Of a stretch of 64,000 bases of DNA, positions 5,378 through 63,034 are shown one piece after another. The translations under genes were made by a program, and so were the position numbers. Origin of the DNA: Fidelibacterota bacterium (GTDB lineage Bacteria > Marinisomatota > Marinisomatia > Marinisomatales > UBA1611); the NCBI GenBank assembly GCA_002718285.1, contig PBAR01000007.1, positions 13,808 through 77,807 of the forward strand, given 5' to 3'. Position 1 is the stretch's first letter. Every line of letters starts with the position of its first letter. Below the pieces are notes generated by a model. It was not told where the DNA came from, did no database searches, and saw only the letters and a program-made list of their open reading frames with translations.

Positions 5378-5415
5378 TACTTATTTCAAATTATATTTTT
5401 GGTATTATTTTTCAA

Positions 5416-6114: not shown

Positions 6115-6118
6115 AATT

Positions 6119-43976: not shown

Positions 43977-44028
43977 AATTAAAAAATAAATCATATTAAT
44001 TAAAAAATAAATCATATTAATTAAAAAA
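43977..44028. repeat. 21-bp tandem repeat, about 2.5 copies
   Basis: The unit aattaaaaaataaatcatatt occurs twice exactly (43977-43997, 43998-44018), followed by the first ten bases of a third copy. It spans the stop codon of the PseG-like gene and the intergenic gap to the methyltransferase gene. It looks like a slippage-generated repeat; I see no promoter or terminator in it. Confidence 0.8.
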
Positions 44029-45036
44029 CTCATAAAAACGATTTTTGGTAATGCCTACATTGGTAAAGAATTTTTTTTGGTTTTTTACCATTTCCTTTCT
44101 AGCTACATGATTTTCAAAGATAAAATTGAAAGTTTCACTAAAACTATCAAAACTATTAATATTTAAAGGTAAGCTCATTTGAAGATTAAACGCTTCATTT
44201 GCAGACGGAATTTGGTTATCAATAAGGGCACATATTAATAAAGGCCTACGTAAATATAAAACTTCATATAAAGTTGTTCCTGCTCCAGTAATAACTAAAT
44301 CAGACCATTGAATTAATTTAGATACATCGTTACTATGTGGGATTAATTCTATTTTGAAAGGAAATTCAGTAATCAATCGTGATAAAATATTTTGATCAGA
44401 ATAGCCAATTAATATTTTAAAATGTATATGAATTGGGAGATCTAGATCACCTAAATAATTTATAACAGTTCTAAGTTGCGATGTAATGTCACCACCACCT
44501 AAAGTCAAAAATATTTTATTTATTTTTGGCGATACTTGAAATAAAGCATCTTCATTGTTTATCTGTCTAAACTCGCGTCTCCATAACCAATACTTTGGAC
44601 CCAATAATAATTTAGTGGAATGTCCTATTGAATAGTTTAGATTTAAAGATCCTAAATTCTGGTTAAGTACATAATCGCATTCAAAATGCATTTGTGCTAA
44701 ATCATCAATACAAAGAACTTTTAATCCTATTTTTCTTAATGCTTTATGATAGTTTGTATCAAAATGATATCCATCAAGAATGATCAAACCTATATCATCT
44801 GAAGATATTAAATAGTTTATAGTCAATTTTATATCATCTTGCATATTTTCTACTTTAAATCTTTCAATATTAATATACTCGGCTTTTAGCATATCTAATA
44901 AATATTCCACATTTGTTGTCGTTAAAAAATCAACTTGGATATTTTCATCTTTTAATAATTGGGCAAAAGCAAAACACCTCATAAAATGCCCAATTCCCAT
45001 AGTCTCATTACCATCTACTCTAAAAACTACACGCAA
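44017..45036 (-). CDS. PseG-like nucleotide-sugar hydrolase
   Basis: The 339-residue GT-B-type protein starts MRVVFRVDGNETMGIGHFMR, with His17 at the position of the catalytic His of PseG. It continues with LDGYHFDTNY, LTLGGGDITSQ and ITGAGTTLYEVLYLRRP. PseG removes UDP from a 2,4-diacetamido sugar to give the substrate of the nonulosonate synthase. With the NeuB-type synthase and the cytidylyltransferase nearby it forms a pseudaminic- or legionaminic-type pathway. The PseB, PseC and PseH steps are not clearly present in the window, so it may act on a different nucleotide sugar. Confidence 0.8.
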   Translation of the reverse strand: MRVVFRVDGNETMGIGHFMRCFAFAQLLKDENIQVDFLTTTNVEYLLDMLKAEYINIERFKVENMQDDIKLTINYLISSDDIGLIILDGYHFDTNYHKALRKIGLKVLCIDDLAQMHFECDYVLNQNLGSLNLNYSIGHSTKLLLGPKYWLWRREFRQINNEDALFQVSPKINKIFLTLGGGDITSQLRTVINYLGDLDLPIHIHFKILIGYSDQNILSRLITEFPFKIELIPHSNDVSKLIQWSDLVITGAGTTLYEVLYLRRPLLICALIDNQIPSANEAFNLQMSLPLNINSFDSFSETFNFIFENHVARKEMVKNQKKFFTNVGITKNRFYEFFN

Positions 45037-46464: not shown

Positions 46465-46905
46465 CTAAAAATATTTTTCATAATATTTTTCTTTTAAAAC
46501 CATTGGATTCCCATAGATCAAAGAATGTGGAGGTATAGTAATACCATCAACTATAGTTCCTGCGGCAACTACTGAATGGTGTCCAATATGAACACCACCT
46601 TTAATGACACTATGTGACCCTATAAAAACATTATTTTCTATAGTAATATCCTTTCGTTCTGTTTTATCAATAATACCAAGACAGCGCTTATGCGAGTCAG
46701 CACAATTTATTGACACAAAGGAAGCTATATCGCACGATTCTCCTATATAAACATTTGCTCCCTTCGCATTTATTATAGATAATCCACCAATATAAACACC
46801 TTTTTCAATTACGGGATTCCCATTAATCCAAACTAACGGATGAAATCGGTTTATAGGAAACTGAATTAAATTAGAGAAATGCTTTTTAAATTTTCGGATT
46901 CCCAT
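46465..46905 (-). CDS. Hexapeptide-repeat acyltransferase (CatB/NeuD-like O- or N-acetyltransferase)
   Basis: The 146-residue protein shows left-handed beta-helix repeats: VIEKGVYIGGLSIINAKGAN, VYIGESCDIASFVSINCAD, ITIENNVFIGSHSVIKGGVH and GHHSVVAAGTIVDGITIPPH. CADSHKR places a His in the expected catalytic loop. It is a short acetyltransferase for a sugar, likely the nonulosonic acid or its precursor. Its start overlaps the stop of the synthase gene by 1 base. Confidence 0.85.
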   Translation of the reverse strand: MGIRKFKKHFSNLIQFPINRFHPLVWINGNPVIEKGVYIGGLSIINAKGANVYIGESCDIASFVSINCADSHKRCLGIIDKTERKDITIENNVFIGSHSVIKGGVHIGHHSVVAAGTIVDGITIPPHSLIYGNPMVLKEKYYEKYF

Positions 46906-47957
46906 TATACAAAATCTCCAAACTGGATTAAATCTCCTTTTTTTATTTTTCTCGTTGCTTTCTTTTTTAAAATAGTTTCGTAAATAGATGAGTTTAGACC
47001 AGTACCAGGCCTGCGCAGACCAATATTAGCTGTAGTAAAATTATCTTTTTTTTGGATATCTTCAATTGCTACAACACTACGACGCGCTAAATCTTTCATT
47101 TCTTTTTCTAATTTAGTAGGCCGCACAATGGGGCTACCCAAAAGTTTATATGCATCATGAATAGAAATTACCCATTCATTTAATCCATCTGGATTTTCTG
47201 AAAACCAGTGATCTGGCCCAGGTAATTTTTTATCAAGTGTAAAATGTTTCTCTAATATACATGCTCCTAAACCTGTTGCCAATGCAGATGCCAAAGGTCC
47301 AATTGTATGATCAGAAAAACCAATTGGAATCATAGGGAATGATTCTTGAAGAGTGTGTAATCTTTTCAAATTTACATCTTCGATTGGCGTTGGGTACTGT
47401 GAAATACAAAGTAATAATATAACAGGATAATTTTCAAAAGCACCCACTGTTTCTAAAGATGTATGAATTTCAGCTAGATCAGCCATACCACAAGATAAGA
47501 TCAAAGGAATATTGGTTTTAGCATATCGTTTTAATAGATAAAGATTAGTAAAATCATCCGAACCAACTTTAATAGCTTGCATATTAAGTTCCATTAATAT
47601 TTCCAAATCTGAAAAATTCTGAGGTGTAGATAGAAAGGTTATCCCTACTTCAACACATTTATTATAAATAATATTCCAGTCATTATTTTTGAACTCATAA
47701 CGAGAGAATAAATCTATCATTGATTCTGTTACTTTTTTCCCTTGAGATTTATAGGTAAATGTTAAACTAGGATCAGTAATAACTTCCTTAGCCTTAAAAG
47801 TTTGAAACTTAATTGCATCTGCACCAGAAGTTTTTGCAACTTCAATCATCTTTAGAGCTTTTTCTAATTCTCCATTGTGATTAATTCCTGCTTCTGCAAT
47901 AATGTATGGCTTCAATCCTCGACCAATGGTGTTATTTCCAATTTTTATAAAGCTCAT
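46905..47957 (-). CDS. NeuB/PseI/LegI-family nonulosonic acid synthase
   Basis: The 350-residue protein has the family start KPYIIAEAGINHNGELEKAL, then ADAIKFQTFKAKEV, IKVGSDDFTNL, FSDHTIG and EKHFTLDKKLPGPDHWFS (metal-binding His). The C-terminal SAF antifreeze-like domain (about 290-350: SVVAIEDIQKKD, KIKKGDLIQ) is intact. It condenses phosphoenolpyruvate with an N-acyl hexosamine to make a nine-carbon ulosonic acid. The DFTN and PGPDHWFS features fit the legionaminic/pseudaminic side more than sialic acid, but this is a weak guide. Confidence 0.9.
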   Translation of the reverse strand: MSFIKIGNNTIGRGLKPYIIAEAGINHNGELEKALKMIEVAKTSGADAIKFQTFKAKEVITDPSLTFTYKSQGKKVTESMIDLFSRYEFKNNDWNIIYNKCVEVGITFLSTPQNFSDLEILMELNMQAIKVGSDDFTNLYLLKRYAKTNIPLILSCGMADLAEIHTSLETVGAFENYPVILLLCISQYPTPIEDVNLKRLHTLQESFPMIPIGFSDHTIGPLASALATGLGACILEKHFTLDKKLPGPDHWFSENPDGLNEWVISIHDAYKLLGSPIVRPTKLEKEMKDLARRSVVAIEDIQKKDNFTTANIGLRRPGTGLNSSIYETILKKKATRKIKKGDLIQFGDFV

Positions 47958-48880: not shown

Positions 48881-50914
48881 CTAGTTTAGTCGATTAAATC
48901 CACTATGACAAATAGGACCTTCAAGGAAATCATCAATATTATTTTCTAATTCGCATTTAGAAATCAATGAAAAAATAGGTTCTAGATTTTGAAAATATTT
49001 ATCAATCACATTATTAGTATGGTCTATGCAAACATATATAGAATTAGTCGCCAGGATACCTTTTTTAAGCATTTCTTGGGTAATAAATGTCTTATATTTC
49101 AACCAATCTTTGGTCCGTATAGAAAATCCTGTCAAAGCTGGAAGACCATGCACATTGACATCGAGATTATATTTTTTTCCTAGTTCAAGCCAACGTTTAT
49201 TAATTTCTTTTCCTATTTTTGTAATTCTTTCCCATGATTTTTCACGTTCCATAATTTCAAGCGTTTTTATCCCAGCCGCAGAGCCAATTCGTTCGGTCCA
49301 AAAGGTACTGCTTATAAATGTATCTTGTGCAGCTTCCATAACATCCCGCCTCCCAATAACTGCAGTTATTGCGTAACCATTACCCATTGCTTTACCAAAC
49401 ACTGCCATATCCGGTTCAATTCCATATTTTTTATGTAATCCTCCAAAAGTTTCACGAAAACCTGATGTACATTCATCAAATATTAGAACAATGTTATTTT
49501 TATTTGCTATTTCTCGGACACCCTTTAAAAAACCAGATTTAGGAGGCATGGATCTAGATACTTCCATTTTTATAACACCAATATCATGATTGCGTATAAT
49601 ATTTTTTAATTCATCAATATTATTATAATTAAATGTTAGTATAGATCCTTTTAGTCCTTTTGGTACACCTTTAGGCTTGAGTCCAGAAATTAGATGATTA
49701 TCTAATCCTTTCTTACTATTTAGATTTGTAGCTAAATACCAGTCATGCCAACCGTGATATCCACAAATTACCACTTTATCTTTTCCACTACATGCTCTAG
49801 CTATCCGTATAGCAATAGCATTAGCTTCACCTCCACTTCGCGCAAAGCGTACCATATTTGCCCATGGATGCAGTTCAATCAGTTTTTCAGCCAGATAAAC
49901 TTCCTCAGGACAATTAAGAGTGGACATATTTCCTTGGTTAACTACCCTGCGAACTGTTTCATCTACTTCTGGATGACAATAACCCAGGATATTGGTACCA
50001 ATTCCCATGGCAGACATATCTATATATTTATTGCCATCTAGATCCCAAACATTACATCCTTTTGCCTTATCATAGTAGGCTGGCCACTTATCTGGAAGAA
50101 ACATTTCAGCCCGCTTAGAAAGTAACATATTACCACCAGGTATAATTTTTTTGGCACGTTTCCAAAGTTTCTGCCCATAACCTATCTCTATACCTTCGTT
50201 CCTTTTCAAACCTTCATTAGCATTAAAATATTCTGGTTTTGATTTTTTTAAATCAATTATTTTGCGCCATGAAAAATTTAAATTTGGAGTAAAATGATTA
50301 ATAATATTACTTATAACCTGAAAATCATCTGGTTCATCTATAGTCCATCGCAAATCAGAATAATTAACATCATTTGAAAGATTCTCTTTTTTAATACCAG
50401 GGTTGGTACGAATAAATGGAGTTACATGTTCTCGTTCAACTTTATTTTTTGCTTTTTCATACGCTTCTTCTAAAGAAATAAAAGAAAAAACCTCAGTATC
50501 AAGACCATCAGGAAAAGTAGGGGGTTCAATGTTACAGGCATAGTCTGCATGTTTTTTATTATAAAGATTAATTACATCATCTACGATTTGAGGGTCAATC
50601 ATGGGACAATCACCTGTGATTCGAACAATCGTCTCTGAGCAATACTTTTTTGCTGCATTATAATATCTGCCTAATACATCACTTTCATGGCCTCGAAAGA
50701 CATCAAACCCTAAATCTTCTATAGATTTTGCTAGCACATCATTTTCATGAGATTTAGAAGTTGCCAAAATAATTTTATCAATTCTTTTTGAAAATGATAA
50801 TCTATAGAATAATATCTGGATAAGCGGCTTACCATCGATTTCTTTTAATACTTTTCCTGGAAATCGAGTTGATCCCATACGGGCTTGTACAATGGCTAAA
50901 GTATTATATTTCAT
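48881..50914 (-). CDS. Fusion: SpsF-like cytidylyltransferase + class III PLP aminotransferase
   Basis: The protein has 677 residues. Residues 1-235 are a SpsF/CMP-acylneuraminate-type nucleotidyltransferase: LAIVQARMGSTRFPGKVL, KIILATSKSHEND, VRITGDCPMIDP and LRWTIDEPDDF. Residues 245-677 are a class III aminotransferase of the glutamate-1-semialdehyde type: KKIIPGGNMLLSKR, ARSGGEANAIAIRIARA, GYHGWHDWY, IFDEC with pyridine-binding Asp480, and FGKAMGNGYA with PLP Lys508. The fusion joins CMP activation and amino transfer in one chain, which suggests an aminated ulosonic acid or a substrate handed between domains. Both halves keep catalytic motifs. Confidence 0.88.
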   Translation of the reverse strand: MKYNTLAIVQARMGSTRFPGKVLKEIDGKPLIQILFYRLSFSKRIDKIILATSKSHENDVLAKSIEDLGFDVFRGHESDVLGRYYNAAKKYCSETIVRITGDCPMIDPQIVDDVINLYNKKHADYACNIEPPTFPDGLDTEVFSFISLEEAYEKAKNKVEREHVTPFIRTNPGIKKENLSNDVNYSDLRWTIDEPDDFQVISNIINHFTPNLNFSWRKIIDLKKSKPEYFNANEGLKRNEGIEIGYGQKLWKRAKKIIPGGNMLLSKRAEMFLPDKWPAYYDKAKGCNVWDLDGNKYIDMSAMGIGTNILGYCHPEVDETVRRVVNQGNMSTLNCPEEVYLAEKLIELHPWANMVRFARSGGEANAIAIRIARACSGKDKVVICGYHGWHDWYLATNLNSKKGLDNHLISGLKPKGVPKGLKGSILTFNYNNIDELKNIIRNHDIGVIKMEVSRSMPPKSGFLKGVREIANKNNIVLIFDECTSGFRETFGGLHKKYGIEPDMAVFGKAMGNGYAITAVIGRRDVMEAAQDTFISSTFWTERIGSAAGIKTLEIMEREKSWERITKIGKEINKRWLELGKKYNLDVNVHGLPALTGFSIRTKDWLKYKTFITQEMLKKGILATNSIYVCIDHTNNVIDKYFQNLEPIFSLISKCELENNIDDFLEGPICHSGFNRLN

Positions 50915-52226: not shown

Positions 52227-53396
52227 TTAAGTATTATTTAACTGATCACATATTGCGACAATATTTTCCTCAGACAAATCTGGGAAATTACCAATATACC
52301 ATCCAAAATGATGAATGTGTTCTACTTCAGGATAATTTTCCCATTTCTTTTCTTGGATAATGCCCTTAAGGTACGGTTGCCTCATTTGGTTCCCACCTCC
52401 AGCATTGCCTCGGCGAAATTCTATACCATTATTTCGCATATGGTTTTCTAGCCTATCGCGAAACTGAAAATCGGGCACTTTTAAAATAATAGGAAATGCA
52501 TAATTAGAACTACCATCAAGTATAAAATCAGTACGAAAGATCCTTTTATCTAAACAGTCCAAAAATATAGATAGATTTCTGCCCCTTTTTTTATTGTTCT
52601 TATCAAGACGTTTTAGTTGGTTTCTGCCAATCACTGCACCAATCTCTGTATTCCGTACATTATATGCAGGAAATGCAAATATAAATTCAGGATTTAATTC
52701 AGGGTATTCTAATGCATATTCTTGTTTTTTCTTTTCACTATTCGATTCACGAACCATCCCATGGGAACGAAGCATACGCAATATTTGATATACATTATCA
52801 TCATTAGTACAGACCATGCCTCCTTCTACGGTACTCATATGATGTGCGTAGTAAAATGAAAAATTTGAAATAAAACCATATGCACCCAGCTTTTTCCCTT
52901 TAAACGTTGCACCATGGGATTCACATACATCTTCTATAATAGGGATATTCCTTTCTATAAGTGCATCTAACAAATAATCAGTTAAGCCATTGAACCCTTG
53001 CACATGTGTAATAAATACAGCACGAGTCTTGCTTGTAATTTTTGAAATAATTTGTTTATCATCCATACAAAGCGTACGTGGATTAATATCAACAAAAACT
53101 GGGTCAAATCCATTCTGCAAAACAGAAGCAATATCCGATACCCAGGTCAAAGGCGGTACAATAATTTCTCCACTACTATAAAATTGTTTTAAAGTAGTCA
53201 TTGTTAACAGATTTGCAGATGCACCTGAGTTTACAAAAACACTATATTTTACTCCGAGCCATTGTGACCATTCATCTTCAAAAGCTTTCACATTAGATGA
53301 TTGAGTCAGAATAGGGTCTTCTTGCTGCAAAAATCTAATTAATACATCAAGATCATCTCTTGTTATATTATTTTTCATTAATGGATGGTTAACCAT
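52227..53396 (-). CDS. DegT/DnrJ-fold sugar 3-dehydratase (ColD/RfbH-like, His replaces PLP Lys)
   Basis: The 389-residue protein has the DegT fold: FVNSGASANLLTM, VPPLTWVSDIASVLQNG and IIEDVCESHGA (Asp156). Where aminotransferases have SFHxxK, it has SFYYAHHMSTVEGG, placing His185 at the Lys position. This His change marks the PMP-dependent dehydratases RfbH (E1) and ColD, which remove the C3 hydroxyl of a 4-keto-6-deoxy sugar. No [2Fe-2S] cysteine cluster typical of E1 is visible, so it is closer to ColD in type. It would yield a 3-deoxy sugar intermediate. It ends the module that contains the split TPP enzyme. Confidence 0.83.
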   Translation of the reverse strand: MVNHPLMKNNITRDDLDVLIRFLQQEDPILTQSSNVKAFEDEWSQWLGVKYSVFVNSGASANLLTMTTLKQFYSSGEIIVPPLTWVSDIASVLQNGFDPVFVDINPRTLCMDDKQIISKITSKTRAVFITHVQGFNGLTDYLLDALIERNIPIIEDVCESHGATFKGKKLGAYGFISNFSFYYAHHMSTVEGGMVCTNDDNVYQILRMLRSHGMVRESNSEKKKQEYALEYPELNPEFIFAFPAYNVRNTEIGAVIGRNQLKRLDKNNKKRGRNLSIFLDCLDKRIFRTDFILDGSSNYAFPIILKVPDFQFRDRLENHMRNNGIEFRRGNAGGGNQMRQPYLKGIIQEKKWENYPEVEHIHHFGWYIGNFPDLSEENIVAICDQLNNT

Positions 53397-53444
53397 AATA
53401 TATTATTATCTTTAATTTTACAGGATAATAAGAAAAAGTATATT

Positions 53445-54962
53445 TCAATCCCCTAATAATTTCCGCTTTAGTTTTATTTTTGTCATATTTTTTATATTTG
53501 TAATGGCTGTGTAACCGAATTTGTTGTAAATCATATTTAAAAACCTGGGATTTTCAAAATAAGTATGGAAAGCATAATCTCTAAATCTTAAAACTTCTTC
53601 AGATGTCAATGAATAGGTTCTAGTTGGTAAATGCTCATATGACAAAAAGCCATATTCTTCATATGATTGCGGGAGATCCCACCCATCCCGCTTCGCTTTC
53701 AAATATAACGGGCTACCTGGCAAAGCAGTAGCACAATACATATTTGCATTTTCTGTATTTAAATCAAGAGCTAGGCTAAGAGTTTCTTGCATAGTATCCC
53801 AGGTGTCATGACCAAGTCCAAATATGTAGTTTGCGCCAACATTAATACCAGCATTTTTTATCATACTTACAACTTCTCTAATATTTATCTCTTTAAACTT
53901 CCCTTTTGTGATCTCACTCCTTATTTCTTGATTACCAGCTTCTATTCCAGGGGCTAACCAGTTGACACCAGCAGTTTTTAGTTTTTCTAAATATTTAGGT
54001 TTTATGGTATCAATTCGAGTATAAGCCCAAATATTAAAATTATACTTTCTTTCTATAATTAAATCACAAAGAGCAAGAAAATGTTTTGGATTTAATACCC
54101 ACATTTCATCTGCAATTTTAAGTTGTTTTACACCATGATCTGCTAGATAATCTAATTGTTTTATAGTAAAACTTGGATCCCAATATCTAAAATGATTGAA
54201 ATCGGAAGATGCCATATTCGGGTTATTATCTGTTCTATTAATGATATTTATCATACAAAATTCACATTTATAAATGCATCCAAGTGATGTATAAATGCTA
54301 GCAAAAGGGCTTTTTTCTAAATCATTATAGTTTGAATGCCAACTACTTGTTCTGTATTTATCTAAACTAGGCATTAAATCATAAGCTACTCCTGGTAAAT
54401 CTATTTCTAACCTATCTTGTGGAACAATTATCGAAGGACTGGTAATAGATAGATTGCCATCTGAATCTCTATAACAAATACCTTTTATATTTTTTAGAGA
54501 TTCTGGTAAAAAATCCGTACTCAAAATATCCAATAGAGAATAAACACCTTCATTAGTGAAACCAATATCAATAAATGGATGATTAGTCAATGTTTCTTTA
54601 GGTAACGCATTAATATGTGGGCCTATAAATGCAATGGGATATTCTGATTCATTATCCTTAATCCATTTTGCGGCTTCAACTGCTCCCGACATTGCTGATG
54701 TTGATGCGTTAGGGTTTTGCCCTGTAACAACAAATAGAATTAAGCGCGGATCAAAGTCTTTGATTGCTTTATTAAATTCATCCTGATCAGGACGCTCGAT
54801 TTCCATATCATATATAAAAACACCATAACCACTATTTCTAACAGCATTCGCAAGAAGACCAGCCCATATATTTGGCTCTCTCGCAGAAAAATCGTCAGCT
54901 AATTTTTGGTATAGTTTTCTTGAAGAAGGTGCTATTATTAATAGATCAAGTTTCCTATTCAT
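53445..54962 (-). CDS. B12-binding-domain radical SAM protein
   Basis: The 505-residue protein has an N-terminal cobalamin-binding-like domain (about 1-200; LLANAVRNSGYGVFIYDMEI, IAFIGPHINALPKE) and a radical SAM domain with TSLGCIYKCEFCMINI (CxxxCxxC near residue 225). It then has IKIADEMWVLNP and APGIEAGNQEIRSEI, typical of the class. It overlaps the E1-beta-like gene by 4 bases (ATGA), so it is translationally tied to the thiamine-dependent pair. It may methylate or rearrange the same sugar. It is the third of this class in the locus. Confidence 0.82.
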   Translation of the reverse strand: MNRKLDLLIIAPSSRKLYQKLADDFSAREPNIWAGLLANAVRNSGYGVFIYDMEIERPDQDEFNKAIKDFDPRLILFVVTGQNPNASTSAMSGAVEAAKWIKDNESEYPIAFIGPHINALPKETLTNHPFIDIGFTNEGVYSLLDILSTDFLPESLKNIKGICYRDSDGNLSITSPSIIVPQDRLEIDLPGVAYDLMPSLDKYRTSSWHSNYNDLEKSPFASIYTSLGCIYKCEFCMINIINRTDNNPNMASSDFNHFRYWDPSFTIKQLDYLADHGVKQLKIADEMWVLNPKHFLALCDLIIERKYNFNIWAYTRIDTIKPKYLEKLKTAGVNWLAPGIEAGNQEIRSEITKGKFKEINIREVVSMIKNAGINVGANYIFGLGHDTWDTMQETLSLALDLNTENANMYCATALPGSPLYLKAKRDGWDLPQSYEEYGFLSYEHLPTRTYSLTSEEVLRFRDYAFHTYFENPRFLNMIYNKFGYTAITNIKNMTKIKLKRKLLGD

Positions 54963-55873
54963 CCATTATCTTCTAATAGTTTTTCTATAAATCCAATTAT
55001 ATCTTCAGAATCTGGCGGGAGATTATCAACTTTATTATGGAAACCGGCAGTTCTGTGTTGCAATCCAAGTGTATAAACTTTTTTATTAGATTGGATCATT
55101 ATTCTCTGGGCTATGCTGCTAGCCACTCCCTGCTCATAATCATCATCTAGAACCAACCCTCCATACTTCGAATTCTCCAAACAATGAAGCCATTCTTTCT
55201 TAAAAGTAAAAGGTTTAATCCAAAGTTGATGTATTATACTAACACTTAATCCACGCTCTTGTAATATTAACCTAGCTTTTTCGGCCTCAAACCTCGTTAC
55301 TGATATTGGAAACAATACAAAATCAGAATTTTTGTGGATTATATCATTGAATTCTATATCACTATCATAACTTAATCTATGTTCAGATATATAATATACA
55401 TCATCATTCATGATGAAATCATCATATGCGAATTGATATTCATTAGGAGTCATAGGAGACAATATTTTTGTTCCAGGCATTCTCTGATATATAGAATGAT
55501 GGGATGACCCTGCAACTGGGCCTATGCCACCTTCCATGGCTATACTCCTTATAAATATTGGACAAGAAATACCCCATATCTCTTTTGATTTTGAAGCATA
55601 ATTAATAATCATTGGAGCATTGTACCATTGAAATCCTTGGTATCTCACAACATAAATTGGTTTTATTCCTGATAAAGCAGCACCTACAACAAATCCTCCA
55701 TTTGCAACATCTGCAGTTGTTAATTCAATCATACCATTTTCTTCATACAGCTCAGGAAGAGTACCCCCTACCCAACCAACAGCAGTTAGACATTGACCAA
55801 AACATTTACTATTCAGGTTGACCAGATGATTATAAGTGATTTTCTTTATTCTTTCTCTAACTGTTGTCGCCAT
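54959..55873 (-). CDS. Thiamine-diphosphate enzyme, E1 beta / transketolase C-terminal-like subunit
   Basis: The 304-residue protein has the pyrimidine-binding-domain pattern IELTTADVANGGFVVGAALS then GIKPIYVVRYQGFQWYNAPM. It continues GGIGPVAGSSHHSIYQRMPG, matching GP-x-GG-xHSQ of pyruvate dehydrogenase E1 beta, and a C-terminal domain with GLVLDDDYEQGVASSIAQRI. Together with the next gene it forms a split two-subunit TPP enzyme. No lipoyl E2 or E3 gene is near, so a stand-alone two-carbon transfer, as in AviB1/B2-type sugar branching enzymes, is more likely than an oxidative complex. The start overlaps the alpha gene by 28 bases. Confidence 0.82.
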   Translation of the reverse strand: MATTVRERIKKITYNHLVNLNSKCFGQCLTAVGWVGGTLPELYEENGMIELTTADVANGGFVVGAALSGIKPIYVVRYQGFQWYNAPMIINYASKSKEIWGISCPIFIRSIAMEGGIGPVAGSSHHSIYQRMPGTKILSPMTPNEYQFAYDDFIMNDDVYYISEHRLSYDSDIEFNDIIHKNSDFVLFPISVTRFEAEKARLILQERGLSVSIIHQLWIKPFTFKKEWLHCLENSKYGGLVLDDDYEQGVASSIAQRIMIQSNKKVYTLGLQHRTAGFHNKVDNLPPDSEDIIGFIEKLLEDNG

Positions 55874-56676
55874 AGATTTTTTATATATATTTTTGTTTTT
55901 TCATGAATTTCTTCAGCAATAGGTCCAAGTTTGTTCATTTCATCTAAATATCTATCAAAAACATCTTCATTATCAATCCCTGCCCCTGCATGCCAATATT
56001 TTCTAATAGTATTAATATTTAACAATATTGGTCTAGTAAAAACAGAATCTAAACAAACTTTAATTTCTTTAGGATCATCTGAGATATTATGCGATAGCAT
56101 TCCAAAACCATTCGATACTTCATGCATATCCCAACTTCTACGAACTATTTTTTCTGTTAAAATGGATAGATTATTATCTTCTACGATAAATAGGATGGGC
56201 AGATTTTTTGTTACTGCCCAACCTATTGAACTCAAGACATAATCTTCTTCTGCTGCTGAATCCCCAACAAATACTATCGTAGGATTTTTGGTTGAATAGC
56301 AATATCCAACTGCGATAGGGACTTGGCTACCCATCATACCATCATGCCCAAATATATTATTTTCTTTCGATTGTATAGATGCTGACCCACCCATCCCCTT
56401 TGCACAACCCGATCCTCTTCCTAAAAGTTCATCTATCAGTTTTATTGGGTCCCCATTAAATGACAAATAAGTAGAATGCCCTCTGTGTTGGATAAAAATA
56501 TATGGCATAACTTTTTTTTCAATTACAGTAGCTATTGTAGCAGGTATATATTCTTGGCCTGCAGAAAGATACACTGGAAACTGAATAACTTTTTGCGTTA
56601 TTTTTTTGAAAGTTTGTTCTTCAAAGTTTCTGCAAATTGAAGCTTTATTAAAGACATTTAACCTAAACTTGCTCAT
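55846..56676 (-). CDS. Thiamine-diphosphate enzyme, E1 alpha / transketolase N-terminal-like subunit
   Basis: The 276-residue protein matches dehydrogenase E1 alpha: QHRGHSTYLSFNGDP, ELLGRGSGCAKGMGGSASIQ, GMMGSQVPIAVGYC, and the TPP motif region FVGDSAAEEDYVLSS ending IVEDNNLSI. The usual GDG of the motif is GDS, while the distal Asn-Asn is present. It is shorter than E1 alpha (about 330-370), lacking the N-terminal extension and the phosphorylation-loop region. It overlaps the upstream 2OG-oxygenase-like gene by 4 bases and the beta gene by 28. Confidence 0.83.
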   Translation of the reverse strand: MSKFRLNVFNKASICRNFEEQTFKKITQKVIQFPVYLSAGQEYIPATIATVIEKKVMPYIFIQHRGHSTYLSFNGDPIKLIDELLGRGSGCAKGMGGSASIQSKENNIFGHDGMMGSQVPIAVGYCYSTKNPTIVFVGDSAAEEDYVLSSIGWAVTKNLPILFIVEDNNLSILTEKIVRRSWDMHEVSNGFGMLSHNISDDPKEIKVCLDSVFTRPILLNINTIRKYWHAGAGIDNEDVFDRYLDEMNKLGPIAEEIHEKTKIYIKNLWRQQLEKE

Positions 56677-57590
56677 TTACATTTATGCACTTTAAGTGAA
56701 CCAGTTGTATAATGAGAATAAAGAGATTTTTTATCTAGAATATTATCATCAATTGATCTATTACTACTAATTAAATAATCCTCCCCAATAATACTTACTT
56801 CTTTAAGGTACTCTTTTTCACGATCAGCGTGAACATCATGATCACCAACGCATACAGTCGTATCGATGGAAACCCTCGTACCACAACCTTCTTCTCTATG
56901 CGTAGCATGAATTAAAGCATAATCACTTAGGTGTACTTTATTTTTTATAGGTTTTAATTTTTTATTTATTTGATAATAATCCAGGACCCACTGCATTTCT
57001 TCATATGTTGACGCATTATCAAGGAATCTCTTAGAAAATTCATTATTATCTTTTAATGTCCAAAATCTTAAATTATTATTTTCAATATCTCCAAATGCTG
57101 GAAAGTAACAATTCATCGACCAAGGCCCCTCAACCCATGCATCTGAATGAGGCCAAGCTGTATTTAATGTTCGATTAATATTTTCTTCAATTTCTTGGGC
57201 AAATTTCACCCGAATATTTGGTGTTATACGGTACTTCGTAATTAAACTAGGATTATTTTCTACCATATTTTTTACTATCTTAGACCAACTTCTTAAAACA
57301 AGATTATATTCAAGTTGGTATTCTTTTTTTGGCACAATACCGCCATTAGGTGTTACATTATCTAATCGTTTATAATTACCATCTAGCCTATGAATAAACT
57401 CTTCCTCATTTGAAGTAAAGTCAAAGTATAATGCTTTGGAGATATAAAGCATTAGTGCAAATCTTAATTCATTTAAATCATTTTTTTGAGGAGAATAAAA
57501 AACTAGTAATTCATGTAAACTATTGAGCCGCCAGGCATTTTTAATGGTTTTAAATCGTTCTACGCGATAATCATAAGAATTACTACTCAT
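56673..57590 (-). CDS. 2OG-Fe(II)-oxygenase-like protein of sporadic carbohydrate clusters (paralog A)
   Basis: The 305-residue protein is a paralog of 59243-60190. Shared anchors are DNVTPNGGIVPKKEYQLEYN, a HSDAW (HxD iron-ligand pattern), FGDIENNNLRFWTL and YALIHATHREEGCGTRVSID, which gives the distal His and an Arg placed as in 2-oxoglutarate oxygenases. The N-terminal 100 residues are helical. It resembles the oxygenases noted in sporadically distributed carbohydrate clusters; no reaction is known. Overlaps of 4 bases on both sides (E1 alpha and HAD genes) tie it into the module. Hydroxylation or oxidative modification of a sugar is inferred. Confidence 0.62.
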   Translation of the reverse strand: MSSNSYDYRVERFKTIKNAWRLNSLHELLVFYSPQKNDLNELRFALMLYISKALYFDFTSNEEEFIHRLDGNYKRLDNVTPNGGIVPKKEYQLEYNLVLRSWSKIVKNMVENNPSLITKYRITPNIRVKFAQEIEENINRTLNTAWPHSDAWVEGPWSMNCYFPAFGDIENNNLRFWTLKDNNEFSKRFLDNASTYEEMQWVLDYYQINKKLKPIKNKVHLSDYALIHATHREEGCGTRVSIDTTVCVGDHDVHADREKEYLKEVSIIGEDYLISSNRSIDDNILDKKSLYSHYTTGSLKVHKCK

Positions 57591-57973
57591 AAGTTTCCTT
57601 TTACATATTTAATTGTATTATTCCAGGACTTAAAACGAAATCCTTTATCATCAATATAGATGATTGCTCGAGGTTTCTCATGGGTAACATCTGAAATACA
57701 ATCTAATAAATCATAGTTCTTTAACCATTCTATAACTAACTGCTTTCCTGTTTTACCATTCACAAGGGGTCTATCTGGTTTACATTTAGCAGTGAAGATA
57801 ATAATATTGTACTTTTTTGATAACAATTTTATTGCCCCTATGGCTCCTTCAATAGGTTTACCATAACAGGTTCCATCATGCCATCCTTTATCCCAATTAT
57901 GTATTACTCCATCAAAATCAATTGCTATATTTTTCTCATCTTTTTCAAAACCTGGAGGTACTTCTTTAATCAC
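57587..57973 (-). CDS. Small HAD-superfamily phosphatase
   Basis: The 128-residue protein has HAD motif I IAIDFDGVIHNW (Asp19, Asp21), motif II IIFTAKCK, a Lys in THEKPRAI and motif IV YIDDKGF. It has no cap domain, so its substrate may be large or presented by another protein. Probable role is dephosphorylating a sugar phosphate or hydrolysing a nucleotide intermediate. It overlaps the cupin gene by 8 bases and the 2OG-oxygenase-like gene by 4, tightly coupled. Confidence 0.78.
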   Translation of the reverse strand: MIKEVPPGFEKDEKNIAIDFDGVIHNWDKGWHDGTCYGKPIEGAIGAIKLLSKKYNIIIFTAKCKPDRPLVNGKTGKQLVIEWLKNYDLLDCISDVTHEKPRAIIYIDDKGFRFKSWNNTIKYVKGNL

Positions 57974-58643
57974 TTTTTGCCTTACTGATCATCATTATTG
58001 TTGTATTATTATAAACTTTGGGGAATAAAGCAATTAATTGTTTAATGATTTTGCAAGACACAACATCCCCTGCCTGTGCAACCAGATTACCCTCATCTGT
58101 AACTATTCCACCATTTAAGAATACTATATTATCTTCGTCATCCTGATTTTCAAAATATTCAATATCTCCGATAGTCTTTAATTCAATATCACAATTTGAA
58201 AAATTATAATTAAGAGTATAATCTAATTCAGGTTCTACTATCCATAAGCAGTCATTTTTCTTTGGAACCTCAAAGGTACTATCTTCGTATGGTGCTCCTT
58301 CCCGTCCATATTTATCTTCTAATCTCACTAAATCATGTTTATCGACAGGAGTCTCAATTTCAAAAATATGAGCACCATTTACTGAAATAGCTTTGGTAGA
58401 ATGGAAAAGGCCTTTCCTAATCATCGTTTTAGAAACTGGCTTTGATAAAAAACTATTACCTAAAAATGATATTTCAACTTCTCCATCTAAAACTATTAGG
58501 CCTGTTGTTTTATTTGGATGACAATGCATTGAAGTTTGATGGCCAGATCCAATATGCAAATACCATAGAGCAATATTATTATTTTGATAAACTAAGTACT
58601 CATAACCCCAAGGTTTACTTACTATTGTTTTTTCATACTGCAT
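57966..58643 (-). CDS. Cupin-domain protein, mannose-6-phosphate isomerase-like
   Basis: The 225-residue protein has the opening VSKPWGYEYLVYQNNNIALW and the metal motif TSMHCHPNKTTGLIVLDGEV (HxH-x-K...), then IRKGLFHSTKAIS and FEIETPVDKHDLVRLEDKYG. This matches the cupin of type II mannose-6-phosphate isomerase / nucleotidyltransferase C-termini and sialic-acid-cluster cupins. It lacks a nucleotidyltransferase domain. It may isomerise or epimerise a sugar phosphate or act as a sugar-phosphate-binding protein. It overlaps the HAD gene. Confidence 0.8.
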   Translation of the reverse strand: MQYEKTIVSKPWGYEYLVYQNNNIALWYLHIGSGHQTSMHCHPNKTTGLIVLDGEVEISFLGNSFLSKPVSKTMIRKGLFHSTKAISVNGAHIFEIETPVDKHDLVRLEDKYGREGAPYEDSTFEVPKKNDCLWIVEPELDYTLNYNFSNCDIELKTIGDIEYFENQDDEDNIVFLNGGIVTDEGNLVAQAGDVVSCKIIKQLIALFPKVYNNTTIMMISKAKSD

Positions 58644-58667: not shown

Positions 58668-59174
58668 TTAGAACAAACCCTTTGATAAACATAAATAATA
58701 TGCTGCTATTCCACTAATGGAAAAAAAATCTCCTTTATTAATCATTGAAATAAAGTCTGTTCTACTCAACAGCAAAACTTCGTGGTCAGAATTAGAATTA
58801 GTTAGCGACAATTTGCAATTATAACCGAAAAATAAATTTAATGTATTATCAGATCTACTTGGAAAATTCTTAAATGATCCTAAATATTTTATTTTATCAC
58901 AAACATACCCTGTTTCTTCAATTAATTCTCTTTTAGCTGCAATAGTAGATTCTTCGCCTTGTTCAATATAACCAGCTGGAAGCTCTAACATTGAAATTCC
59001 AATTGCTGGTCTGAATTGCCGAACTAAAATTATTTCTTCCTTTTCTGTGATCGCTAATATTTCAACAGAATCTGGAGTTGAAAAATAATAATAGGGTTCT
59101 CCATTAGATGATTGAAAAGAAACTGTATTTAATGAAAACCATTTAGTTTCAAGAATTTTATTCGGATTTGACAT
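58668..59174 (-). CDS. Nudix hydrolase
   Basis: The 168-residue protein contains the Nudix box GYIEQGEESTIAAKRELIEE followed by TGYV, fitting G-x5-E-x7-REUxEExGU. The surrounding VRQFRPAIGISMLELPAG matches ADP-ribose / GDP-mannose pyrophosphatase-like Nudix enzymes. It would cleave a nucleotide sugar, perhaps to NMP and sugar phosphate, feeding the HAD and cupin proteins that follow. It is 24 bases before the cupin start. Confidence 0.85.
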   Translation of the reverse strand: MSNPNKILETKWFSLNTVSFQSSNGEPYYYFSTPDSVEILAITEKEEIILVRQFRPAIGISMLELPAGYIEQGEESTIAAKRELIEETGYVCDKIKYLGSFKNFPSRSDNTLNLFFGYNCKLSLTNSNSDHEVLLLSRTDFISMINKGDFFSISGIAAYYLCLSKGLF

Positions 59175-59242: not shown

Positions 59243-60190
59243 CTAATTAGAAAAATTATTCAAATTAATTATTTGGACATTCGAAGGGTGTTTAAAACCG
59301 CCTTTACTTTGCACTTTTTTACTCATTTTATCTGGAAAATGGAAATATGTTTTACGACCAACATTTAAAAATTCTGAATTTGTAATAGTCTCCTGGTATC
59401 TCAGTTTTTTGACATCAATATTATCAATATCAGTTTTTGCAAAAGATTCTAAATCTGGCATTTTCATATCAAACCCAGTATCAAGAGAAACTCTTATACC
59501 TGCATTATTTTTTCTGTAGGATTGATGTATTATTGAGGCATCAGCAATAATTAAGTTGCCTTTTTTAGGTGTATAATCAATTATTTTATATTGTTTTACT
59601 ATTTCTGAGCCATCTCTAGCACTTTTTAAAGGTTTTAGCCAATCTTCACTAAAACTATCTGGTGTTTGTGCATATCTTATATGATTATTATTAATGTCAC
59701 CTAAAATAAAACAATGAACAGCAATCCAATTTGGGTTTGCACCTGTCCATGTATCAGAGTGCATATTTTCTGTTGGATGTTTTCTATTTAAATTTAGTTT
59801 ATTTACATTTCCATATTTAAGTCTTAGGTTGGGAGGAAAATGAAAATTATGTATCAGGTCTTCAATATCAAGAAAATTAATAATATTAACATAAGCTCTA
59901 ACTAGGATGTTAAACTCTAAACTAACCCTATTTTTTGGCACCACTATACCATTTGGTGTAATATTTTTCAATAGATTTTTTCTTACTAACAATTCCTTTA
60001 TCAACTCTTTTTCATCAAGAAATACACTATTTGAATCCATACACTTTGAAATATATGTTTTTGTAGCAATAGATATATTTTCAAATAATTCATCTGGAAG
60101 TTTTACTTCAAGCATTAAGTCAGTTATTTTTTCACAAGCAAATCTTTTTGCTAATTGATTAATATAGTTTTTTCTCTTCTCAATGCTCAT
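59243..60190 (-). CDS. 2OG-Fe(II)-oxygenase-like protein of sporadic carbohydrate clusters (paralog B)
   Basis: This 315-residue paralog of 56673-57590 has NITPNGIVVPKNRVSLEFNI, ENMHSDTWTG with HxD, CFILGDINNNHIRYAQTP and GNLIIADASIIHQSYRKNNA then GIRVSLD, giving the distal His and Arg. It has a different C-terminal tail (KTYFHFPDKMSKKVQSKGG). The pair lies on either side of the Nudix-cupin-HAD genes. I infer two related oxidation steps or a heterodimer. The 125-base gap upstream holds no gene; AAAGG precedes the ATG. Confidence 0.62.
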   Translation of the reverse strand: MSIEKRKNYINQLAKRFACEKITDLMLEVKLPDELFENISIATKTYISKCMDSNSVFLDEKELIKELLVRKNLLKNITPNGIVVPKNRVSLEFNILVRAYVNIINFLDIEDLIHNFHFPPNLRLKYGNVNKLNLNRKHPTENMHSDTWTGANPNWIAVHCFILGDINNNHIRYAQTPDSFSEDWLKPLKSARDGSEIVKQYKIIDYTPKKGNLIIADASIIHQSYRKNNAGIRVSLDTGFDMKMPDLESFAKTDIDNIDVKKLRYQETITNSEFLNVGRKTYFHFPDKMSKKVQSKGGFKHPSNVQIINLNNFSN

Positions 60191-60315: not shown

Positions 60316-61782
60316 TTAAACTTCGGGAATTAATAAGGGGTCTTCTTCGATACCATGTTCCGCTTTTGGATTATATTTATTACTAGTAATTATATTTGAA
60401 TTATATAAAGGTCTATTATGAAAAGCATCAAATACACTTGCAACTTGCGGTGACATATGCTTTCCTAATTCTGTGAGAACAAAATCAGATTCATTAATTC
60501 TTACCAATCCATCCTGTTCAAATTCTTTTAAACTATTCATTTCTTTACTAAAGTAATCTTTAAAATCAATACTATAGTTATTGTTAATTGTATCATAATC
60601 AACTAAAAAATAAGTTCGAATTCGTTTAATAATATCGCGTCGTATTTTATCATCTGTTGTTAGTTTATATCCTCTATAAACAGGGAATTCCCCTTTATCT
60701 AAGGATTTTTTATATAAATTTTGTTCATAATAGTTTTGAAAGTAATAATCATCACCCAGAGACCCATGGGCTGAGCTCCCCACAGCAATGAAATTGATTG
60801 CTTCTCCAGTTTGAGTACCTAATGAATTATAATAGGCATTCCCATCATCCATCGCTTTAGATAGCGGATCACTGGGCTTAGCAAAACTTTCAAAACCAGC
60901 ACGTTTATAGCCAGCTTGCATCAACGACTCTGTTGCTTCAACAAATATTGCTTTTCGTTCATAGAAATCTGGCATTGGGTTATTCCTCACCATACGGGTC
61001 ATATATTTACGGACATCGGGTTTATAGTGAACATACATAGTCTGAATCTCATCTGGGCCAATATCCACAGTATGGCGTATAGTTTCAGCAATTTTCTCAG
61101 GAGTTTGCCTAGGTAATCCTATTAATAAATCAAAATTGATTACGGGAAATAGTTCCCGAATTTCTGGGGTTAACAACTTTGCAACCATTTCTGGCGGCTG
61201 TATCCTATTAATTTCTTCCTGCACATCATGATCAAAATCCTGCACACCAAATGAAAGTCTATTAACACCACATTCATGATAAAATCGTAAACGATCCAAA
61301 TCAACTCTTCTAGGATCAATTTCAACAGTAAATGTTTTAACCTTATTAAAATCAATAAATGATCGCATTTTATTTAAAAGCACTTCAAATTCTTTTTCAT
61401 GGTAGTATGTTGGAGACCCTCCACCCATATAAATTTCTTCAACTGATGGATTTAGCTTATTTTTTTCCATCAACTCAATCAATAGGTCAAGTTCCTTTAA
61501 TAAATAATTATCCAAATAATCTTTCACTTTATTATAATCATTAGTGATTTCTTTACTACATAAACAAAAGTAACATAATTCTTCGCAAAAAGGTGTATGG
61601 ACATAAAAAAGGCAAGATTTATCTTTATTATTTGGGATCCAATCTTTTAAGGCATCTCTATATTCTTTATCACCCGCTGAATAATCCCAATTTGCCTTTG
61701 TAGGGTATTCAGTATAATCATAAACTAGATTGTGATGGTATTTCTTTAAAAGATTAATATCGGTGAGTATTTCTTTATTCAT
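60316..61782 (-). CDS. HemN-like radical SAM protein
   Basis: The 488-residue protein has FYVHTPFCEELCYFCLCSKE with the CxxxCxxC-x-C arrangement of the HemN family, then IYMGGGSPTYYHEKEFEVLL, EIDPRRVDLDRLRFYHECG and NRLSFGVQDFDHDVQEEINR, typical of coproporphyrinogen III dehydrogenases and relatives. A C-terminal helical HemN domain is present. In this locus it is unlikely to serve heme; HemN-like proteins also do methylations and other radical steps. AGAGG lies about 10 bases before the ATG. It begins the run of module genes after the PfpI gene. Confidence 0.85.
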   Translation of the reverse strand: MNKEILTDINLLKKYHHNLVYDYTEYPTKANWDYSAGDKEYRDALKDWIPNNKDKSCLFYVHTPFCEELCYFCLCSKEITNDYNKVKDYLDNYLLKELDLLIELMEKNKLNPSVEEIYMGGGSPTYYHEKEFEVLLNKMRSFIDFNKVKTFTVEIDPRRVDLDRLRFYHECGVNRLSFGVQDFDHDVQEEINRIQPPEMVAKLLTPEIRELFPVINFDLLIGLPRQTPEKIAETIRHTVDIGPDEIQTMYVHYKPDVRKYMTRMVRNNPMPDFYERKAIFVEATESLMQAGYKRAGFESFAKPSDPLSKAMDDGNAYYNSLGTQTGEAINFIAVGSSAHGSLGDDYYFQNYYEQNLYKKSLDKGEFPVYRGYKLTTDDKIRRDIIKRIRTYFLVDYDTINNNYSIDFKDYFSKEMNSLKEFEQDGLVRINESDFVLTELGKHMSPQVASVFDAFHNRPLYNSNIITSNKYNPKAEHGIEEDPLLIPEV

Positions 61783-61860: not shown

Positions 61861-62382
61861 CTACAAAGAATGTATTTCCCCAACAAGATTTAAAGTCGCC
61901 TTCATCCAAGGCCCTAGATCTTTATAATGAGCGGTTGTAACAATATTGCTATCAACAACGGCTGGCTCATCAGTATATGTTGCGCCAGCATTATTAATAT
62001 CATCTTTTATACTATAATATCCAGAAATATTTTTCCCATTTACAATATTTGCTGAAATTAGCAACTGCGCTGCATGACAAATACTTGCGATAACATTACC
62101 AGTAGAATGAAAATCAGATATAAATTTTAGTATTTCTTCGTCTTGTCTCATGTATTCCATAGATTTTGCACCCCCAGGTAAAATTAATAAAATGTAATCA
62201 TTTACATTTAGATCGGGTATATCTTTTGTAGGGACGATTTTTGACCCTATTATACCATTTACCTGTTTACCTCCTCTAACAGCAACATCTACATCATATC
62301 CATCTTCTTGAACCCTATAAAACGGATAAATAAACTCGTGATCTTGTACAAGATTACCTGTTAAAATAAGTGCTTTCTTCAT
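61861..62382 (-). CDS. DJ-1/PfpI-family protein
   Basis: The 173-residue protein starts KKALILTGNLVQDHEFIYPF, with Glu16 in the usual place, and has the nucleophile elbow ASICHAAQLLI (Cys102) followed by His103. The size and motif fit the DJ-1/PfpI superfamily of glyoxalase/deglycase, chaperone or amidase-like proteins. A protective role against reactive carbonyl intermediates, or a hydrolytic step, is possible. It is separated from the remnants upstream by about 110 AT-rich bases. Confidence 0.82.
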   Translation of the reverse strand: MKKALILTGNLVQDHEFIYPFYRVQEDGYDVDVAVRGGKQVNGIIGSKIVPTKDIPDLNVNDYILLILPGGAKSMEYMRQDEEILKFISDFHSTGNVIASICHAAQLLISANIVNGKNISGYYSIKDDINNAGATYTDEPAVVDSNIVTTAHYKDLGPWMKATLNLVGEIHSL

Positions 62383-62493: not shown

Positions 62494-62877
62494 TTATACC
62501 ATAGTATTTTCAAATAAATGCTTAGGTTTCCAGCCTAACTTAAAAAGTTTTTTTGCACCAAATGGAATTAGAGGAATTCTAATTCCTTTATCATCAAAAC
62601 AAGGATCTACTACAAATGCGGCTTCTGCAATTCTTTCTGTGCCATTCTTGTGGTGCGAAGAAGTCATTAAAACTTTACCACCATGCCGCTCTACTATTTG
62701 GCAAATTTCATCACTGTCAGTGGCTACAAATACTTCATTCAAAGATTTAGCGAATTCACATCGTTTGAAAACATGAACAATCATAGGAAGCCCACAAATA
62801 TCAGTCAATGCTTTCCTTGGGAGTCTGGAAGACTCTAAACGAGATGGTATAATAGCAACTATTCTAGTTTGATTCAT
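62494..62877 (-). pseudogene. Chimera of kdsB-like N-terminus and GDP-mannose-dehydratase-like C-terminus
   Basis: From the ATG at 62877 the product starts MNQTRIVAIIPSRLESSRLP then RKALTDI, FVATDSDEICQIVERHGGKV and KNGTERIAEAA, the N-terminal third of KdsB. It then jumps to VVDPCF...AKKLFKLGWKPKHLFENTMV, matching the last residues of GDP-mannose 4,6-dehydratase (Gmd: KAKKKLGWKPK-x-F-x-mV). The IQGDEP and later KdsB regions are absent, and nearly all of Gmd is absent. The frame is open across the junction, so a 127-residue peptide could be made, but neither enzyme would be active. I read this as the scar of a deletion that removed DNA between a kdsB and a gmd gene. Confidence 0.7.
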
Positions 62878-62881
62878 TGAT

Positions 62882-63034
62882 CTATTTGGTTCTGTCAAGA
62901 AGCAATTTTAAAAAATTATCAATTGAATTATATAATATTGCTGAATCGACATTATATGTAACAAATTTTATACCCAGATCCATAACAAATTTAGTTTTTT
63001 CGATAGATTGAGGCACAAATCCACCAGCACATTT
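62882..63034 (-). pseudogene. Aldolase-like C-terminal fragment
   Basis: In the frame ending at TAG 62882-62884 the sequence reads CAGGFVPQSIEKTKFVMDLG then IKFVTYNVDSAILYNSIDNF, without an upstream start. It resembles the last strands and helices of HpcH/HpaI-type aldolases (G-x-F-x-x-GSD-x-x-LL). It joins, out of frame, the ferredoxin-reductase fragment just upstream. The call is tentative because only about 48 residues remain. Confidence 0.5.

Follow-up and report, generated by a model that had tools for sequence, protein, structure and literature searches.

A putative split thiamine-diphosphate carboligase in a surface-glycan locus of a Fidelibacterota bacterium

What do two E1-like subunits of a thiamine diphosphate (TPP) enzyme do in a surface-glycan locus? 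The question is raised by a 64,000-nucleotide stretch of a Fidelibacterota genome (assembly GCA_002718285.1, contig PBAR01000007.1, positions 13,808 to 77,807), here called the window. The window is AT-rich (30% GC) and, judged by its predicted gene content, is a capsule or O-antigen locus: it encodes an initial sugar transferase, Wzy, a flippase and nonulosonic-acid genes, together with a weak Wzi match below cut-off. Four genes are at the centre of the question, and their coordinates, given in a first-pass annotation made from the sequence, proved exact; all four are on the minus strand:

52227-53396, minus strand: DegT-fold pyridoxamine phosphate (PMP) enzyme, ColD-like, with H185 at the catalytic Lys position; proposed nucleoside diphosphate (NDP)-4-keto-sugar 3-dehydratase (PF01041, 5.4e-65)
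53445-54962, minus strand: B12-binding radical S-adenosylmethionine (SAM) enzyme (PF02310, B12-binding, 2.4e-9; PF04055, Radical_SAM, 3.9e-13)
54959-55873, minus strand: E1-beta-like subunit of a proposed split TPP carboligase (PF02779, Transket_pyr, 4.2e-9; clade; residues)
55846-56676, minus strand: E1-alpha-like subunit with the TPP motif GDS...EDNN intact (PF00676, E1_dh, 5.5e-17; alignment)

From the open reading frame (ORF) coordinates, E1-beta overlaps the radical SAM gene by 4 bp and E1-alpha by 28 bp. We propose, with a probability of roughly 0.68, that the E1-like pair is a split TPP carboligase that branches an NDP-4-keto-3-deoxy sugar made by the DegT enzyme, for a surface polysaccharide, and is not part of a dehydrogenase. 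In this scheme the ColD-like DegT would make the 4-keto-3-deoxy NDP-sugar, and the TPP enzyme would remove CO2 from a 2-oxo acid and add the acyl anion to the ketone of the NDP-sugar, giving a branched-chain sugar.

Clade and catalytic residues of the E1-like pair

The window pair carries the E1_dh and Transket_pyr domains and the TPP motif, and the NCBIfam models of pyruvate dehydrogenase (PDH) E1 match both genes far below the model cut-offs. E1-beta homologues numbered 2596. A search with an alignment of 20 relatives yielded 15 cellular loci and 51 viral contigs, and these 66 were clustered with the window to give 67 loci, hereafter the cassette loci. E1-alpha adjoins E1-beta in 66 of them, the exception (L029) being a sequence that starts at E1-beta, and GD...EDN is kept in 16/16 aligned E1-alpha sequences (EDNN in 14, EDNG in 2). 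In a 35-row tree, 17 cassette E1-beta sequences form one clade on a long branch (support 100/100), apart from four E1-beta with nearby E2 genes and from Azospirillum-type pairs; a Streptomyces plasmid pair also falls outside the clade.

Two catalytic positions are altered in the cassette E1-beta. All 67 have Asp at a position where 8/8 references have Glu, a residue whose role is TPP activation. At the position equivalent to H128beta, where the references have His (8/8), 66 have Ala and one has Ser. Passages of PMC2663715 state that every known E1 has this His and that lipoyl transfer and complex activity depend on it; in Geobacillus PDH, Gln and Asn variants keep less than 5% of complex activity and Ala inactivates the complex. 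Loss of the His thus argues against an E2-coupled enzyme. An invariant His125 and a nearly invariant His126 lie near the lost His in the cassette E1-beta sequence.

As the first-pass annotation had stated, no E2, E3 or lipoyl family is found near the pair: a Pfam scan of the 56 listed minus-strand ORFs of the window returned none, at limits of 1e-3, partly 1e-5, and with three listed plus-strand ORFs and shorter ORFs outside the scan. Within the 56 ORFs scanned, the pair thus shows the pattern of alphaKADH2 enzymes of the AviB type, in which a split E1 is encoded among NDP-sugar genes that include no E2. Elsewhere, PF00198 (E2) was found in 0/20 viral contigs, 0/3 Thiothrix-like genomes and 7/7 SAR11 genomes, records that may be incomplete. 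By its separate clade and its changes of Glu to Asp and His to Ala or Ser, the pair is, in sequence, not a normal dehydrogenase E1, and the close kinship with PDH that would speak against the proposal was not seen.

Partner genes and an exchangeable carboligase

The Lys-to-His change that had been noted in the DegT enzyme was borne out by alignment to ColD. The best PDB match is ColD (2gms, 2.4e-49), with the RfbH-type 3bcx at 6.7e-31; the deposited chains 3b8x and 2r0t have N and K at ColD's His position. The DegT fold with His for Lys is that of a ColD-type PMP 3-dehydratase. DegT enzymes of the window's cluster are present in 55/67 cassette loci, with an ORF that overlaps the E1-beta stop in many phage loci, and His replaces the Lys in 56 of 57 cluster members in these loci, L010 alone keeping Lys.

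Viral contigs were scanned with the DegT, DJ-1, cupin and B12 families (at most the best 80 loci each) and with a GDP-mannose dehydratase (GMD) control (23 loci). The rows kept for flank length were 29 of 67 for DegT (5 kb), 40 of 65 for B12 (4 kb), 71 of 95 distinct cupins (3 kb) and 16 of 21 for the control (5 kb). The DegT scan, which was not selected on TPP genes, found a TPP carboligase within 5 kb of 27/29 distinct phage genes: 7 cassette E1, 8 minimal E1, 11 split transketolase and 1 YerE-like. At 7 kb the figure is 23/25, with L185 and L189 as exceptions, the latter being the contig of L016 with an E1 pair 6.5 kb away. For GMD, counting every GMD-like gene in the 23 loci, a TPP carboligase lies within 6 kb in 2/16; per locus and with duplicates kept, the central 12 kb contains a TPP gene in 1/23.

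The B12 radical SAM enzyme has B12-binding and radical SAM domains, with CX3CX2C invariant in 12 sequences, and no NCBIfam model reached its cut-off for the window protein. Present in 19/67 cassette loci, the family is strongly tied to TPP carboligases as a constant partner. In its scan of viral contigs a TPP carboligase lies within 5 kb in 39/40 (21 cassette E1, one of them also with a YerE-like gene, 7 minimal E1 and 11 YerE-like). Among 398 Pseudomonadota genomes, 13 carry the family at 14 places (one a 29% relative); the fetched stretch holds a TPP carboligase in 11 (9 split transketolase, 1 fused E1, 1 minimal E1) and lacks one in L434, L440 and L443, and seven of the 14 have a DegT 61-65% identical to that of the window.

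Further conserved genes of the unit had been overlooked by the first-pass annotation:

56673-57590, minus strand: 2-oxoglutarate (2OG)/Fe(II) dioxygenase-fold protein, HxD...H...R (alignment of 14; predicted structure)
57587-57973, minus strand: small haloacid dehalogenase (HAD)-like protein with a DFDGV motif, accessory module (motif; cluster c10)
57966-58643, minus strand: cupin, kin to the C-terminal domain of phosphomannose isomerase (PMI), accessory module (PF01050, 1.5e-4, just under cut-off; alignment)
61861-62382, minus strand: DJ-1/PfpI protein of the accessory module, in which a Cys and a Glu are conserved (PF01965, 6e-43; TIGR01382, 143.4 bits, cut-off 139.05; alignment)

By ORF clustering, DJ-1 and the cupin are each present in 64/67 cassette loci and are the nearest dedicated partners that the E1 pair has. 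An HAD-like protein occurs in 39/67: in 30 it belongs to cluster c10, and in 9 a member of another HAD-like cluster, c29, occupies that slot; the window ORF has no Pfam match, and we take it to be HAD-like from its DFDGV motif. The dioxygenase-fold gene overlaps E1-alpha by 4 bp. Its family is found in 16/67 loci, has no Pfam match for the window member, and keeps H148, D150, H228 and R239 in all 14 sequences aligned. The predicted structure (mean local confidence, pLDDT, 87.6) has 50 PDB matches listed, all non-heme 2OG-type enzymes and including SnoN, KanJ, AviO1 and EvdO2, at low query template-modelling (TM) scores of 0.28-0.43; several come from sugar or aminoglycoside pathways.

In the cupin scan, a TPP carboligase lies within 6 kb of the cupin in 70/71 rows: 50 have a cassette E1 without a YerE-like gene, 19 the reverse, and 1 both. 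The remaining row has neither. Where DJ-1/cupin modules lack the E1 pair, a 590-aa enzyme of the acetohydroxyacid synthase (AHAS) type stands in the E1 slot or just before DJ-1. Its best PDB sequence match is 8rph (8.9e-108, against 8e-71 for AHAS) and its best fold match is JanthE (8rpj, TM 0.93), which a passage of PMC12247030 names among ketone-branching YerE-like enzymes. No AHAS-type YerE enzyme is among the 56 scanned ORFs of the window; the type is present in other loci. YerE-like enzymes themselves divide into 21 accompanied by DJ-1/cupin and 15 that lack DJ-1 and have the B12 enzyme as partner, with two label changes on their tree. DJ-1/cupin is thus tied to particular carboligases, which fits a role in donor supply.

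The class of DegT tracks the carboligase. ColD and RfbH classes number 41 and 2 with E1, and 1 and 19 with YerE-like enzymes (Fisher 6.6e-13, a test that ignores kinship and includes loci of the E1 scan; 39 further loci have neither DegT class within 6 kb), and NCBIfam classes the DegT beside the one scanned YerE-like enzyme as RfbH (461 bits against a cut-off of 423). In a tree with 75 DegT rows, 72 of them classed, the carboligase class changes at least 22 times; these rows were thinned from 122 distinct ones, some found by the E1 scan, of which 14 have no carboligase within 6 kb, three of these with a 6-kb flank. Judged from predicted gene content, the carboligase slot is exchangeable among cassette E1, minimal E1, split transketolase and a JanthE/YerE-like single chain. 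A constant DegT partner beside a changing carboligase is expected if the carboligase does one step in DegT's pathway. The co-occurrence anticipated by the first-pass annotation holds for the tie of the DegT and B12 enzymes to TPP carboligases and fails as a strict pairing of DegT with the E1 pair.

Some of these carboligase genes were seen in more detail. The minimal E1 of one phage contig (L119:7877-9003) is a tiny split E1-like pair of 199 and 176 aa in which no Transketolase_C domain was found, flanked by a B12 radical SAM gene and a GHMP kinase; a pair 66-70% identical to it is present in a bacterial genome (G256, locus L432). Three phage contigs have a split transketolase in the vicinity of B12 radical SAM and DegT genes or flanked by them (L139:7354-9031, L111:7272-9001, L182:5529-7237).

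Weighing the readings

The branched-sugar idea, already put forward in the first-pass annotation, gains from the non-dehydrogenase character of the pair, the carboligase ties and the swap with JanthE/YerE-like enzymes, and is thereby partly supported; a two-carbon branch, pyruvate as donor and a 4-keto-3-deoxy sugar as acceptor are candidate features. DJ-1, cupin and HAD could produce or modify the 2-oxo acid that serves as donor, or else act on the branch itself. A conceivable order for the donor is isomerase and phosphatase, DJ-1 acting on a 2-oxo-aldehyde, oxidation to the 2-oxo acid, and TPP transfer. Tailoring of the sugar might be the task of the B12 radical SAM protein and the dioxygenase-fold protein. 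GMD-like genes near DegT in other loci are at most a hint that the substrate is GDP-4-keto-6-deoxymannose.

Bacterial relatives repeat parts of this arrangement. Solidesulfovibrio magneticus RS-1 plasmid pDMC1 has the row radical SAM-NUDIX-kinase-E1-alpha-E1-beta-Fcl (GDP-fucose-synthase-like)-DegT-epimerase-nucleotidyltransferase; its DegT has His at the Lys position and is only ~30% identical to that of the window, and its E1 pair is of the Azospirillum type. E1-alpha, E1-beta and a His-type DegT follow one another on plasmids of Azospirillum lipoferum and A. thermophilum, and in A. argentinense a split transketolase adjoins the B12 enzyme. In Thiothrix-like genomes a single cluster contains two E1 pairs: one of the Azospirillum type, with a GMD-like gene after it, and, some 6-9 kb further on, that of the cassette. 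Either two branched sugars are made there or the pairs act on different ketones, and our confidence in the exact order from DegT to E1 is for this reason only moderate.

Several observations weigh against the carboligase proposal. In Geobacillus PDH, Ala and Asn at the His also strongly impair the reaction with dichlorophenolindophenol (passages of PMC2663715); since Ala there strongly harms PDH even in that assay, catalysis by the cassette enzyme must differ. The Azospirillum and Streptomyces pairs, with no E2 in the stretch seen, keep both Glu and His, so that the residue changes mark the cassette clade and not sugar branching generally. A ColD-class DegT lies within 5 kb in only 8/40 rows of the B12 scan, and a His-type DegT within the fetched stretch in only 7/15 cellular loci (L001, L003, L009 and L012-L015; several contigs are short). 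The scan counts, taken after removal of duplicates by an identical 180-bp segment, come from related loci and are not independent events, and the GMD control is a single phage query whose contig itself bears a YerE-like gene. Cyanophage S-CAM7 has a 39%-identical His-type DegT and two epimerases with no TPP gene annotated within 8 kb, the same is true of the surroundings of the A. lipoferum B12 gene (8 kb), and the two DegTs beside E1 in A. oryzae lack the His motif. In L110 the His-type DegT stands between the Azospirillum-type E1 pair and the GMD-like gene.

A broader version of the proposal is tentative, and we place it somewhat below even odds. It holds that aquatic bacteria and T4-like phages share a general pathway to C-branched surface glycans, built on a recurring set of His-type DegT, B12 radical SAM enzyme, GHMP kinase, nucleotidyltransferase and short-chain dehydrogenases/reductases. 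A plug-in carboligase of at least four classes would set the branch, DJ-1/cupin/HAD would supply a special donor for the cassette E1 or one of two YerE-like lineages, the cassette E1 would be a new Asp-type TPP enzyme, and phages would use the pathway to alter host surface sugars.

Among the alternatives, the one that survives best, and that we still regard as unlikely, is that the TPP pair makes a ketose or acyloin, free or phosphorylated, in the manner of 1-deoxyxylulose 5-phosphate synthase or transketolase, and that this is the precursor from which HAD, cupin, kinase and nucleotidyltransferase form the nucleotide sugar, so that no NDP-sugar ketone is branched. HAD-like, PMI-like cupin and GHMP kinase/nucleotidyltransferase genes do recur, split transketolase is one of the exchangeable classes, and genes of SAR11 loci match the HddA and HddC-GmhB models, under their cut-offs. 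However, YerE-like and E1-type enzymes swap with transketolase beside the same DegT and, to our knowledge, neither is expected to make sedoheptulose phosphate. The swap partner is also nearest to JanthE, a listed ketone-branching enzyme (PMC12247030, in the passage cited above).

An improbable alternative is that DegT makes a colitose-type 3,6-dideoxy sugar as a mere neighbour of a TPP pair that serves another sugar. The S-CAM7 DegT, the GMD- and Fcl-like genes often found nearby and the occurrence of two E1 pairs in one locus would suit it, but the 27/29 window-type DegTs with a TPP carboligase, against 2/16 in the control, do not, and Azospirillum and other bacterial loci repeat the pairing with other carboligase types. 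Chance neighbourhood as the sole account of DegT is contradicted by the same control. An ordinary 2-oxoacid dehydrogenase E1 with its E2 elsewhere, although PDH E1 models and structures are the best general matches and the SAR11 hosts G004-G010 have E2 genes, is ruled out for practical purposes by the separate clade, the residue changes (His lost in 67/67) and the E2 scan of the phage contigs and Thiothrix-like genomes, incomplete as those records may be.

How does the cassette compare with known systems? AviB1/AviB2, Pau11/Pau12 and KbDH-alpha/beta (alphaKADH2) likewise have, by description, two E1-like subunits and are encoded in sugar gene clusters; a passage of PMC4425429 mentions AviB together with the non-heme iron enzyme AviO2, and KbDH accepted pyruvate and several ketones in vitro according to one of PMC12247030. 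Those pairs are described in secondary metabolites, whereas the cassette pair occurs in surface-glycan loci and phages, forms a deep Asp/Ala clade and has the DJ-1/cupin/HAD module. YerE and JanthE have the same proposed step, and a JanthE-like enzyme replaces the E1 pair beside DJ-1/cupin/HAD; YerE-like enzymes differ in being single-chain AHAS-type proteins, with an RfbH-type rather than a ColD-type DegT. For the split transketolases of miharamycin and amipurimycin, hydroxyacetyl addition to a keto sugar has been proposed, and the 13 putative split transketolases named in the relevant part of PMC12247030 are all from Streptomycetes. Those of phages and Pseudomonadota, by contrast, occur in association with genes for DegT and B12 radical SAM enzymes. 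ColD shares the DegT fold, the His for Lys and a length of ~390 aa; in colitose synthesis no TPP step is known to follow ColD, whereas in the cassette loci a carboligase is a constant partner.

Branching of keto sugars by TPP enzymes is already known: passages of the 2025 review PMC12247030, of PMC4425429 and of PMC4753412 cover YerE-like enzymes in lipopolysaccharide, and alphaKADH2 pairs and proposed split transketolases in secondary metabolites. Pelagimyophages, T4-like marine phages with O-chain genes, are described in PMC7029224, where the word transketolase is absent from the main text and the passages bearing on these genes describe no carboligase cassette. The first-pass annotation knew of no split arrangement in an O-antigen cluster, and we too found no earlier report of one in a surface-glycan cluster or in phages, judged mostly by titles and the opening lines of abstracts. 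New to us are the surface-glycan and phage setting, the separate E1 clade, the DJ-1/cupin/HAD module, the B12 radical SAM partner and the exchange of carboligases. Split carboligase types would thus extend to surface-glycan clusters and phages, with one pathway slot filled by several carboligase classes. The proposal predicts new branched sugars on aquatic bacteria and points to enzymes that might serve as catalysts for tertiary alcohols. It also assigns to the B12 radical SAM family and to DJ-1 proteins a partner role in sugar chemistry that can be tested.

Carriers and neighbouring genes

The 15 cellular loci come from Thiothrix-like bacteria, other gammaproteobacterial single cells or metagenome-assembled genomes, and Pelagibacteraceae. 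Only three of the 398 Pseudomonadota genomes have cassette-like E1-beta scores; two were known before and the other (G301) is frame-broken, so the E1-beta family is rare there. A T4-type major capsid gene on 5/20 viral contigs tested indicates that at least some of the cassettes are genuinely carried by phages. Among 50,697 INPHARED phages, E1-beta and the B12 enzyme have no match (limits 1e-5 and 1e-30), DegT matches 49 Synechococcus phage records, all below 60%, and DJ-1 matches one 2.7-kb Salmonella phage record at 33.5%. A plasmid search for DNA close to the window gave no match, and Rfam and transfer RNA scans of the window were empty.

The remaining features that may belong to the unit or its pathway are:

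58668-59174, minus strand: NUDIX hydrolase within the unit (PF00293, 5.7e-14)
59243-60190, minus strand: paralogue of 56673-57590 (25% identity, same invariant residues)
6119-7099, minus strand: GHMP kinase, possible distant pathway member (39-41% to kinases of related operons)
5416-6114, minus strand: nucleotidyltransferase adjoining the GHMP kinase

A NUDIX gene is also part of the S. magneticus operon, with no BLAST match to that of the window. Also within the unit is a HemN-like radical SAM gene (60316-61782), a 40% relative of which lies near the cassette in L027. An Ldh_2-family 2-hydroxyacid dehydrogenase directly follows HAD in four loci. The sole exception among the 71 cupin rows (L320:7478-10104) has DJ-1/cupin/HAD and then an Ldh_2-family dehydrogenase; the 6 kb around it lack a TPP carboligase.

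Other genes of the window stand out in their own right. ORF 62494-62898 encodes only 134 aa, matches a cytidylyltransferase over its first 81 positions out of 217 and looks truncated. A cytidylyltransferase (CTP_transf_3) is fused to a class III aminotransferase at 48881-50914, and NeuB (46905-47957) and PseG (44017-45036) near this fusion point to a nonulosonic-acid pathway in the same locus. The 1306-aa protein of 12435-16355 has a GATase_6 domain followed by SIS domains and long unassigned parts, an unusual fusion resembling glutamine:fructose-6-phosphate amidotransferase. Two further B12-binding radical SAM genes (8005-9639 and 9642-11072), ~25% identical to 53445-54962, lie near the GHMP kinase, the nucleotidyltransferase and an epimerase (4475-7099).

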